This document shows, piece by piece, positions 13,139 through 16,628 of a stretch of DNA of 36,094 nucleotides (position 1 is its first letter; the number at the start of each line of letters is the position of its first letter). A model generated the notes under the pieces. That model was given only the letters and a program-made list of their open reading frames with translations, was not told the DNA's origin and did not search any database. Where the stretch lies: assembly GCA_003246855.1 (NCBI GenBank), contig QKCP01000051.1, forward strand, positions 1-36,094. The letters run 5' to 3'. Made by a program: the position numbers and the translations under genes. This DNA is from Ilyobacter polytropus. Lineage in GTDB: Bacteria; Fusobacteriota; Fusobacteriia; Fusobacteriales; Fusobacteriaceae.

Positions 13139-13333
13139 ATAAATATGGATACAATTTATTTTAGAATCTTATCTTTATCAGTAACTTTTACTATGCTGAT
13201 GCCCCTTTCTCCGGCACAGTTCTGCTTCCGGTCCCCACTGCAATACAACTGATCAGATCGATTCATAATTTATCCCCATTGAAATAAAAGGAATTTTATT
13301 TTTTATCGGTATCTGATTACAGAGGTGATCTTT

Positions 13334-14614
13334 ATGAAGTTAAACGAATTTTTCCATAAAAATATTTACAAGAGAGCATTTTTTCAGAGTAAATCCACGT
13401 ACTCTGACCAAAAGCAGAAGCTGGCTCACCTCCTGAAACTCTTCCTGCTAGCTGCAGAAAACTACACCAAGACGCGTTCCAATCTTTGGGCGGCAGCTTT
13501 AAGCTTTTACTCTCTGCTCTCTATAGTACCCATTATAGCAATAGCTTTTGGAATAGCCAAAAATTTCGGTGTAGAGGAGCTGGTCAAGCAGCAGATATTA
13601 AAAAACTTTCCCTTGCAGGAACAGATCCTACAAAGGATTTTTATCTTGGCGCAACGGGTTCTCGATAATACTAAGGGCGGAATTATAGCCGGTACAGGGT
13701 TATTGTTTTTGCTGTGGTCCGTCATAAAAATATTCTCTTTGGTGGAAAAATCCTTCAACGAGATATGGAAGGTAAAGAAAGCTAGGACCATTATAAGAAA
13801 ATTGACCGACTACCTCTCTATAGTTATACTGCTACCTATTATAGTCGTAGCCACAAACGTTATCTCCACCTATTTCGAAATACACACAATAAATTTAAAC
13901 GGCATAGCCGTGTCTTCACTTAAATTTCTGCCATATCTGCTATTTTGTCTTTTTCTCACCCTCATATATATGATAATACCAAACACGAGGGTAAAGCCAG
14001 CTTCGGCCTTTATAGGCGGGCTTATCGCCGGTATACTGCTACAAATTCTGCAGACGCTGTACATCAAGCTGCAGCTTGGAATACTTAACTACAATAAAAT
14101 CTACGGTAGTTTTTCCATTTTACCTATATTCTTTATATGGCAGAGGCTTACTTGGCTTTTTGTGCTGTTAGGGGCACACGTGTCGTTTGTAACCCAGAAC
14201 TCCTACAAGTACACCTCACTGGTAAAATTAGAGAATTTGAACTACTACTCCAAACGCTCCCTAGTATTCTTGATGACATATATCTTTGTCAAAAACTACG
14301 AGGAGGACAAACCCATCTTGACGACTGAATTAGTCGCCGAAAACCTGGGTCTCTCCATAAGCTTGGTCCAGGAGATATTAAATTTGTTAGTGGAACTTCA
14401 AGTTGTGATAGAGGTCTCCACTTCTGAGGAGATAAGGGCTTACCAGATGAACAAAAACATAAATCAGCTCACACTGTCAAAACTGAACTACCTTTTGGAA
14501 AAACACGGTTTGACCGAACTGCCGGTTTTAGATGAAAACCTGAAAAGGGTAGAGTGCGAGCTAGACAGGTTCATAAAAGAAAATCAACTAGATGTTTTGC
14601 TAAAAGAAATTTGA
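13334..14614 (+). CDS. YihY/BrkB-family membrane protein with winged-helix-like C-terminal tail
   Basis: This 426-residue inner-membrane protein belongs to the YihY/BrkB (formerly 'RNase BN') family of unknown function. The N-terminal half has the family features: NLWAAALSFYSLLSIVPIIAI at about 50-70, GTGLLFLLWSVIKIF, a SFNEIWKVKKAR loop, and further hydrophobic segments ending with LLGAHVSF, about six transmembrane helices in all. After about residue 285 the chain is soluble and resembles a winged helix (TTELVAENLGLSISLVQEIL, then LLVELQVVIEV). Typical YihY proteins are about 290 residues, so this tail is an addition, as in some relatives. ATG 13334 is chosen over GTG 13325 because GAGGTG is its ribosome site. 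The PEPCK-like gene follows after 45 bases on the same strand. Confidence 0.85.
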   Translation: MKLNEFFHKNIYKRAFFQSKSTYSDQKQKLAHLLKLFLLAAENYTKTRSNLWAAALSFYSLLSIVPIIAIAFGIAKNFGVEELVKQQILKNFPLQEQILQRIFILAQRVLDNTKGGIIAGTGLLFLLWSVIKIFSLVEKSFNEIWKVKKARTIIRKLTDYLSIVILLPIIVVATNVISTYFEIHTINLNGIAVSSLKFLPYLLFCLFLTLIYMIIPNTRVKPASAFIGGLIAGILLQILQTLYIKLQLGILNYNKIYGSFSILPIFFIWQRLTWLFVLLGAHVSFVTQNSYKYTSLVKLENLNYYSKRSLVFLMTYIFVKNYEEDKPILTTELVAENLGLSISLVQEILNLLVELQVVIEVSTSEEIRAYQMNKNINQLTLSKLNYLLEKHGLTELPVLDENLKRVECELDRFIKENQLDVLLKEI

Positions 14615-14659
14615 TGCGTAGGCTTGCCTTTAAAACTATTAAAACAAGGAGGAATTTTC

Positions 14660-16384
14660 GTGAAAAAAGAGTTCTCGCTAAGTCGTGGTTCCGCCATGAT
14701 AAACTTTACTATGAAATACTGCAACACAGCTGATTCACTTTTAGACAGTTTGGGGTTTAGAAAGGTGCTCACCGCCTATATAAACAGGATAGAGCAGCGT
14801 GATGCCCCTGTATACAGGTATTTTATCGAGAGGGCTGAAAACGACAAGGAGATCTTAATAGAGAAACTGATAAAGGTATTCAAATTGCTGGTTGTACTAG
14901 ACGTGGAGGATATAAAAACATACGCATATTTTTTCGATGAAAAGAATTTTTTTATAGAGCTGATAGAGGGTGTGTACAGTTATTGGAGAAAGCTGGAAAG
15001 GTATGTGGTCGTTCGAAACGCCAGGAAGGGGGAAGGACTTCAAAATGTAAGTTTCATAGAAGCTAGCAACAACTTCAGTAATCTGGTTATAAGTACATAT
15101 AGAAAAATAGAAGAAACCGTAATGGGATACAAACACAGGGTTTATAGACAGCTAAATGCCGGTGCAAATGCCGGTGTTATACTAAACGATATAAAGTGGG
15201 ACTGTCCGGAAGAGTACTCATTTTTGAAAAGGGTGCCTTTTATAGAGTCAATAATATTAAACCCGCCCTTCATCGCTTATCCAAAGAGAAACACTAGAAA
15301 AGGAGTCTTTCAGGAGGTTAGTAAAAATCCCCTTTATGACTGTCTTATAAACGAAGAAAACTGGTTTTGTTACCCTGCTAAGGTTGGAGAATTTTTAGCT
15401 TACATATACTTTCACAAAGACTTTATGTCACAAGGGGTCTCCCTGGGTAACCTTTTCGAATTGGCAAAAGAAGAGGAGTATTCCAGCAAAAAACCAGATA
15501 TTATATACGTTTTCGGCGCAAGGGACTACGAAGCTGAAATGAAAACCGTATTCCACATGGATAGGGACAACGATGTTATAGTTGGATACGCAAATTACTG
15601 CGAAGACATCGATTACTTCGGTTATATGAAAAAAATGATTTTGACTCTTCATAACGTGAGAATGATAGAGAACGGCAATCTGCCTATGCACGGAGCTATG
15701 GTCAATATCACGATGAAAAATGGCGAGGTGGTGAACATCCTCATTGTCGGTGATAGTGGAGCTGGTAAGTCTGAGAGTTTAGAAGCGTTCCGGATTTTAA
15801 GTGAAGAGTATATAAAGGATATGAAAATAATTTTTGATGATATGGGTGTCCTCAAACTAAACGGTCTCAACAAGCCTTTGGGTTACGGAACGGAAATCGG
15901 AGCCTTTGTCCGCCTAGATGATTTAGATGTGGGCTACGCTTATAAAGAGATCGATAGAAGCATCTTTATGAACCCCGACAAAGTGAATGCAAGGGTCATA
16001 ATACCAGTAGCTACCTACGCCGAGATAACAAAAGGCTATCCAGTTGACCTCTTACTCTATGCAAACAACTACGAGAACGATGAAAACAAGCTGAGCTTTT
16101 TCGAAACCCCTTCAGATGCCGTAAGCGTCTTCAAATCAGGCGCCAGAATGGCAAAAGGTACCACAAACGAAAAGGGATTGGTCGAGTCTTACTTTGCAAA
16201 TCCATTCGGACCGCTTCAAAGGATGGCCCAGACCGATGTTCTCATCGAAAGTTTTTTTGATAGTTTTTTCAAAACCGGAGTGAAGGTCGGGCAGATAAAA
16301 ACTTCTCTAGGAATAAAAGGGCAGGAAAAGGAAGGTCCTAAAAAAGCTGCACACGAACTGTTTGAATACATAAAAAGTATATAA
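14660..16384 (+). CDS. Divergent PEP carboxykinase-fold protein with HPr-kinase-like P-loop
   Basis: This 574-residue protein resembles ATP-dependent PEP carboxykinase in its C-terminal half but is divergent. Aligning by eye with E. coli PckA, the residues for catalysis are present: GYMKK (Lys325, like Lys213), PMHGAM (His344, like His232, same spacing of 19), FDDMG (Asp394, like Asp269), VNARVIIP (Arg445, like Arg333) and SGARMAKGTTNEKG (like SGYTAKxAGTE). The P-loop is GDSGAGKSE (364-372) rather than GLSGTGKTT, and so looks like that of HPr kinase. The N-terminal 230 residues match nothing I recognise. The GTG start has AAGGAGG 7 bases upstream. The protein may be a decarboxylase, a protein kinase or a regulator; I cannot decide which. 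It follows the YihY-type gene, so the two may be cotranscribed. Confidence 0.75.
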   Translation: MKKEFSLSRGSAMINFTMKYCNTADSLLDSLGFRKVLTAYINRIEQRDAPVYRYFIERAENDKEILIEKLIKVFKLLVVLDVEDIKTYAYFFDEKNFFIELIEGVYSYWRKLERYVVVRNARKGEGLQNVSFIEASNNFSNLVISTYRKIEETVMGYKHRVYRQLNAGANAGVILNDIKWDCPEEYSFLKRVPFIESIILNPPFIAYPKRNTRKGVFQEVSKNPLYDCLINEENWFCYPAKVGEFLAYIYFHKDFMSQGVSLGNLFELAKEEEYSSKKPDIIYVFGARDYEAEMKTVFHMDRDNDVIVGYANYCEDIDYFGYMKKMILTLHNVRMIENGNLPMHGAMVNITMKNGEVVNILIVGDSGAGKSESLEAFRILSEEYIKDMKIIFDDMGVLKLNGLNKPLGYGTEIGAFVRLDDLDVGYAYKEIDRSIFMNPDKVNARVIIPVATYAEITKGYPVDLLLYANNYENDENKLSFFETPSDAVSVFKSGARMAKGTTNEKGLVESYFANPFGPLQRMAQTDVLIESFFDSFFKTGVKVGQIKTSLGIKGQEKEGPKKAAHELFEYIKSI

Positions 16385-16469: not shown

Positions 16470-16546
16470 TGGCGTGCCTGACGAGATTCGAACTCATGGC
16501 CTACGCCTTAGGAGGGCGTCGCTCTATCCTGCTGAGCTACAGGCAC
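16470..16546 (-). tRNA. tRNA-Arg (anticodon CCT)
   Basis: A 77-base tRNA with encoded CCA. Acceptor GTGCCTG pairs with CAGGCAC, discriminator G. The anticodon arm is ACGCC/GGCGT with loop CTCCTAA, giving anticodon CCT, which reads AGG. The T-arm has GTTCGAATC. It lies 6 bases after tRNA-Gly in one transcript. Confidence 0.95.
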
Positions 16547-16552
16547 TTTTAG

Positions 16553-16628
16553 TGGAGCGGGAAACGGGATTCGAACCCGCGACCCCAACCTTGGCAAGGT
16601 TGTGCTCTACCAACTGAGCCATTCCCGC
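16553..16628 (-). tRNA. tRNA-Gly (anticodon GCC)
   Basis: A 76-base tRNA with encoded CCA. Acceptor GCGGGAA, D-arm GGCTCAGTTGGTAGAGC, anticodon arm CAACC/GGTTG with loop TTGCCAA, anticodon GCC, T-arm GGGTTCGAATCCC. It is first in the two-tRNA transcript that ends at the hairpin 16431-16458. Confidence 0.96.

Follow-up and report, generated by a model that had tools for sequence, protein, structure and literature searches.

The window, the whole 36,094-nucleotide stretch of Ilyobacter polytropus DNA analyzed here, contains a gene whose product carries residues typical of the ATP-dependent phosphoenolpyruvate carboxykinase (PEPCK) PckA together with a P-loop in the style of HPr kinase/phosphorylase (HprK). 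This combination raises the question of whether the protein is a carboxykinase, a protein kinase, or, as an initial annotation of the sequence had suggested, perhaps an intermediate between the two. We refer to this protein and its relatives as the P family.

The gene spans positions 14660 to 16384 of the plus strand and encodes 574 amino acids from a GTG start codon. The longest open reading frame listed is 14624 to 16384, with a TTG start. Two features favor GTG 14660 over TTG 14624, as the initial annotation had it: a ribosome-binding site, AAGGAGG, read directly from the sequence at 14646 to 14652 (plus strand), 7 bases 5′ of the GTG codon, and the family consensus, which begins there. All residue numbers below are counted from this GTG codon.

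The window lies on a 102-kb contig and holds ordinary housekeeping genes encoding Lon, ClpX, ClpP, trigger factor, RecJ, IF-2, NusA, and FtsY. The upstream membrane-protein gene to which the initial annotation had drawn attention (13325 to 14614, plus strand) belongs to the YihY/BrkB family. It ends 45 bases before the P-family start, and the two genes are possibly cotranscribed at this locus. We rejected YihY/BrkB as a functional partner because it does not adjoin the P-family gene at other loci. Just 3′ of the P-family gene, on the minus strand, positions 16470 to 16628 encode tRNA-Arg(CCT) and tRNA-Gly(GCC).

Predicted fold and domain organization

An AlphaFold model of the protein, built with 55 aligned family members, had a pLDDT of 88 and a pTM of 0.87. 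When this model was compared with the PDB by Foldseek, all of the 50 best matches were PEPCKs, with E values of about 1e-15 to 1e-13. They included ATP-type enzymes (Thermus 1j3b, E value of 1.4e-15, and those of E. coli, Anaerobiospirillum, and Actinobacillus) as well as GTP-type enzymes (mitochondrial 2fah, E value of 2.3e-15, and those of rat, chicken, and Mycobacterium, with TM-scores up to 0.50). The full-length TM-scores are only 0.4 to 0.5, partly because approximately 165 residues of the P-family protein are extra, and identity in the fold alignment is about 16%. By this model, the protein has the predicted fold of the PEPCK superfamily. The PDB holds no solved structure of a close P-family relative, and every match to the P-family protein in sequence searches of it was spurious (PPR, ABC, and the like).

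The extra residues are predicted, from the secondary structure and pLDDT of the model and from conservation, to form a helical N-terminal domain (about residues 1 to 165; 14660 to 15154, plus strand), in which F16, R114, R148, R163, and Q164 are invariant in the family. Residues 1 to 192 modeled alone gave a pLDDT of 83.5, and this model had no match in a PDB fold search (best E value of 0.18, probability of 0.07); the same residues matched no Pfam profile. The following segment (about residues 166 to 318, 15155 to 15613, plus strand; by a looser reckoning, to about residue 330) most plausibly represents a PEPCK N-domain in shortened form, a reading suggested by the strands of the model and by a weak profile alignment of WFCYPAKVGEFLAY with IFIFDGFAGADLKY of PckA. 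The initial annotation had described about 230 N-terminal residues that match nothing. That description holds for residues 1 to 192 in the profile and PDB searches, and fits less well from about residue 166 onward, where the protein is read as a PEPCK N-domain; on this reading, the truly new part is about residues 1 to 165.

Conservation of PEPCK motifs

Every residue singled out in the initial annotation is present: K325 and H344 with a spacing of 19, D393-D394, R445, the HprK-style P-loop GDSGAGKSE (residues 364 to 372), and the loop SGARMAKGTTNEKG (residues 493 to 506). Across 55 P-family sequences, K324, K325, H344, the whole P-loop, D393, D394, and R445 are invariant, as are G494, R496, G500, T501, T502, E504, and G506 of the loop. 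All of these residues are also kept in a distant homolog (44% identity) from a Limosilactobacillus fermentum plasmid record. This conservation is far above chance.

Most of these motifs can be paired with PckA. Conservation and profile alignment match YFGYMKK (residues 319 to 325; 15614 to 15634, this and all following motifs being on the plus strand), which contains the PEPCK motif Y..GxMKK invariant in the family, with the Y207/K212/K213 motif of PckA, and H344 (15689 to 15691) with H232 of its Mn2+ site. The P-loop (15749 to 15775), recognized by its sequence and invariance, is followed by D393-D394 (15836 to 15841), which invariance and profile comparison equate with PckA D268/D269. R445 (15992 to 15994) is invariant, and its motif NARVIIP was aligned by hhalign, with the C-domain only, with NTRVAYP of PckA, which we take to be the R333 motif of the E. 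coli enzyme (E. coli numbering; NTRVxYP). TEIGAFVR (residues 411 to 418; 15890 to 15913), with T411, E412, G414, A415, F416, and R418 invariant, is a proposed counterpart of PckA FEGGCYAK; the pairing was made by eye, and hhalign placed TEIGAFVR otherwise. The conserved loop SGARMAKGTTNEKG (16136 to 16177) appears lid-like.

The substrate arginine of PEPCK (Arg65 in the ATP type, Arg87 in the GTP type) has an invariant candidate in R213 of NTRKG (15296 to 15298), in a stretch over which the profile alignment is unreliable. R213 is proposed as the equivalent of E. coli PckA Arg65, being the best candidate by motif position and invariance. A joint MAFFT alignment of the P family, a related group Q (below), and PckA instead placed the TGR arginine of the Arg65 motif near R110 to R114 in the new domain, which we judged to be a misalignment. 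Neither the joint MAFFT alignment nor hhalign revealed a clear P-family counterpart of the adenine-contacting arginine or other adenine-site residues of PckA, and the choice of nucleotide is therefore not predictable.

Relationship to known families

The window protein scored 23.7 to 25.2 bits with the Pfam PEPCK_ATP profile, below the gathering score of 26.5, and the best score among the family members tested was 23.9. None of the NCBIfam PEPCK models, including TIGR00224, exceeded its cutoff; the best was NF006821, with 29.1 bits against 369. With every Pfam and NCBIfam model below its cutoff for the P family, these libraries contain no curated model of the family. In profile-profile comparisons, the P family gave E values of 3.2e-11 with group Q, 1.6e-7 with PckA, and 5.2e-4 (probability of 31%) with the HprK of the same genome, a comparison that is not perfectly even, as its HprK side is a single sequence. 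The C-domain alone gave 6e-11 with group Q and 2e-8 with PckA. Together with the fold matches and the motifs, these values bear out the PEPCK ancestry proposed in the initial annotation.

Compared with PckA (PF01293, TIGR00224), the P family has the same fold; the motifs YxGxMKK, MH, GxSGxGKS, DD, and NxRxxxP in the same order; and the same Lys-His spacing of 19. It differs in its P-loop (GDSGAGKSE rather than GLSGTGKTT), in the distance from the P-loop Lys to DD (23 residues, compared with 14 in E. coli PckA), in its short N-domain preceded by the extra helical domain, and in an adenine site that is not recognizable. The predicted fold also resembles that of GTP-PEPCK (PF00821), with which there is no sequence-profile match.

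Group Q, the closest profile to the P family, is a second uncurated PEPCK-like group of the Fusobacteriaceae, with proteins of about 555 amino acids in 10 of 61 Fusobacteriales genomes and probably also in one Clostridiaceae genome. It shares the YFGxxKK, CHGG, and ANPF motifs with the P family, whereas it has a GLSG[TS]GKST P-loop and lacks the extra N-terminal domain. Its members score above the Pfam cutoff and far below the NCBIfam cutoffs (best with NF006821); examples from Fusobacteriaceae are L114:881-2554, L116:861-2525, and L117:700-2358. Separately, in a Pfam scan, two P-family members (L129 and L030) matched DUF4914 (PF16260, 612 positions) weakly in the region of the P-loop, and DUF4914 may be another relative of the PEPCK-like fold.

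According to a review of the PEP-pyruvate-oxaloacetate node (PMC8100219), PEPCKs come in ATP, GTP, and PPi types, the last evolutionarily unrelated to the others; its relevant passages name no family like the P family. We found no work on the P family and no enzyme assay of a member in the open-license literature; the PckA of Lactobacillus bulgaricus, LBU0686, is discussed by annotation only (PMC3022021).

Distribution and gene neighbors

A search of the GTDB contig collection (E value of ≤1e-3) returned 516 candidate stretches. The best 80 of these are 54 to 67% identical to the window protein over the whole length and come from Clostridium, Fusobacteriota, Dysgonomonas, an Erysipelotrichaceae bin, and others; homologs in genomes of the same family, Fusobacteriaceae, are 59 to 67% identical. 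The initial annotation had ranked this as the most novel gene of the window. It belongs to a widespread, major clostridial family, at least one homolog of which, that of L. fermentum, was already deposited, on the strength of homology, as “phosphoenolpyruvate carboxykinase.” No relative was found among 2.9 million viral contigs, and matches in PADLOC and PHROGs were weak noise, mostly around the P-loop, so we rejected a phage or defense gene.

Among 61 Fusobacteriales genomes, the P family occurs in 17, true PckA (E value of <1e-200) in 18, and PEP carboxylase in 22, and the P family overlaps with neither of the other two. The PEPCK_GTP profile had no match in the I. polytropus genome or its 60 relatives. 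Profile searches showed this genome to be without an ordinary PEPCK, a check that the initial annotation had set. Part of the Fusobacteriales nonoverlap is phylogeny. A Sebaldella-like genome (G055) has the P family and neither PckA nor PEP carboxylase, in a family otherwise rich in both. In the tree, Sebaldella-type copies, that of G055 among them, group with those of Dysgonomonas (support of 99/97), apart from other Fusobacteriota, which suggests gene transfer and would fit replacement. All 12 Dysgonomonas genomes tested have the P family and none has PckA, compared with PckA in 100 of 118 other Bacteroidales; the P family is present in 1 of 295 Bacteroidia sampled, namely, the Dysgonomonas used as the center. 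Some Dysgonomonas genomes hold two copies. Propionigenium maris has a partial second copy (L007/L099, G004:C5:127451-127873; about 150 amino acids, 39% identical) that adjoins its full copy and is probably the remnant of a diverged duplicate.

The P family is found in 137 of 196 Clostridiaceae genomes, alone in 97 and with PckA in 40; PckA is alone in 38, and 21 have neither (odds ratio of 0.23). The P family thus often replaces PckA, and the exclusion is not constant. Since presence patterns are phylogenetically clumped, P values overstate independence. Overall, the distribution mirrors that of PckA rather than that of a regulator, and the genomic pattern suggests that the P-family protein is a working PEPCK.

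The P-family gene mostly stands alone. Where neighbors recur, they point to the PEP/oxaloacetate/aspartate node: PEP carboxylase lies directly downstream on the same strand at 12 Dysgonomonas-type loci (gaps of 84 to 166 bases), followed by AroA in 8; a class I fructose-bisphosphate aldolase gene is divergently oriented at 9 loci with the other paralog; and ArgG-ArgH lies upstream at 6 clostridial loci.

Proposed function and alternatives

We propose, with a probability of roughly two in three, that the P-family protein is a divergent nucleotide-dependent PEPCK that interconverts oxaloacetate with PEP and CO2 and takes the place of PckA in Fusobacteriota, Dysgonomonas, and many Clostridiaceae. 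From the predicted fold, the motif conservation, the distribution, and the neighbors, we infer the reaction, the substrate residues, the direction, and the nucleotide dependence. The P-loop, through K370/S371 and with D393/D394, would bind the phosphoryl donor or acceptor (nucleotide phosphates). A divalent metal would sit at K325/H344/D394, in a metal and substrate site that would also take in K324. PEP or oxaloacetate may be held by Y319, R445, and probably R213, with SGARMAKGTTNEKG as a putative lid, and the helical N-terminal domain could perhaps serve in oligomerization or control.

Could the protein instead be an HprK-type regulatory kinase that acts, for example, on the product of the adjoining PEP carboxylase or aldolase gene in Dysgonomonas? 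That adjacency and the GDSGxGKSE P-loop would suit such a role, and HprK (PF07475, TIGR00679) likewise has a GxSGxGKSE P-loop followed by a DD motif on a distantly common fold. However, the short P-loop motif is the main resemblance. The Hpr_kinase_C profile reached only 13.7 bits (cutoff, 33.3), at the P-loop only, and TIGR00679 does not appear when the window protein is searched against NCBIfam at an E value of ≤1, whereas a separate HPr kinase encoded in the same genome scores 503.8 bits. HprK does not appear among the 50 best fold matches, and the PEPCK-type Y..GxMKK motif, invariant here, is to our knowledge not found in HprK; the P-family protein is also about twice the length of a single HprK. 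Given that genomes with the P family often lack the ordinary enzyme, the protein is probably an alternative PEPCK rather than a protein kinase. We consider the kinase reading improbable, and the protein is not an HprK/PEPCK hybrid or evolutionary intermediate. As an observation in its own right, the genome's HprK (L100:118-2103, G000:C72) is a 662-amino-acid tandem fusion of two HprK units, with a broken P-loop in unit 1 (GYSEAKIGTA) and an intact one in unit 2 (GKSGIGKSE), possibly a pseudokinase-kinase pair.

The strongest competitor of the carboxykinase reading, although an unlikely one, is a PEPCK-derived small-molecule phosphotransferase, or a carboxykinase for another substrate, with a rebuilt N-terminal half. 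The shortened N-domain and added domain would fit a change of substrate, and the 40 Clostridiaceae genomes (of 196) with both genes, like the paired copies in some Dysgonomonas genomes, suggest that there is perhaps no simple replacement. However, the positions that bind PEP and the second metal in PEPCK do not vary in the family, and neighbors and distribution indicate the PEP/oxaloacetate node. Least credible of these readings is a PEPCK relative that has lost catalysis or serves regulation only: nothing speaks for it directly, apart from adenine-site residues that could not be mapped, and the P-loop Lys, both Asp residues, and the Lys, His, and Arg residues are invariant across members from Bacillota, Fusobacteriota, and Bacteroidota. 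A bolder form of the PEPCK proposal, which we put forward tentatively, is that the P family is a third nucleotide-dependent PEPCK class, equally far from the ATP and GTP classes, marked by the new N-terminal domain and perhaps by another donor, direction, or control, that repeatedly replaced PckA in anaerobes.

Significance

The P family is real, conserved, and divergent, a PEPCK family whose members carry a new domain, and it extends beyond this genome. A recognizable ATP-PEPCK is absent from many Clostridiaceae, Fusobacteriota, and Dysgonomonas, and the Fusobacteriales with the P family also lack PEP carboxylase and GTP-PEPCK. Without these enzymes, it is difficult to say which protein carries out the PEP-oxaloacetate step, and this bears on metabolic models of anaerobes from the gut and from industry. 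If the P family is the enzyme, this gap would be filled in hundreds of genomes. The family would also represent a deep new branch of PEPCK with an unusual P-loop, and it would open the question of PEPCK/HprK evolution to structure determination and assay.
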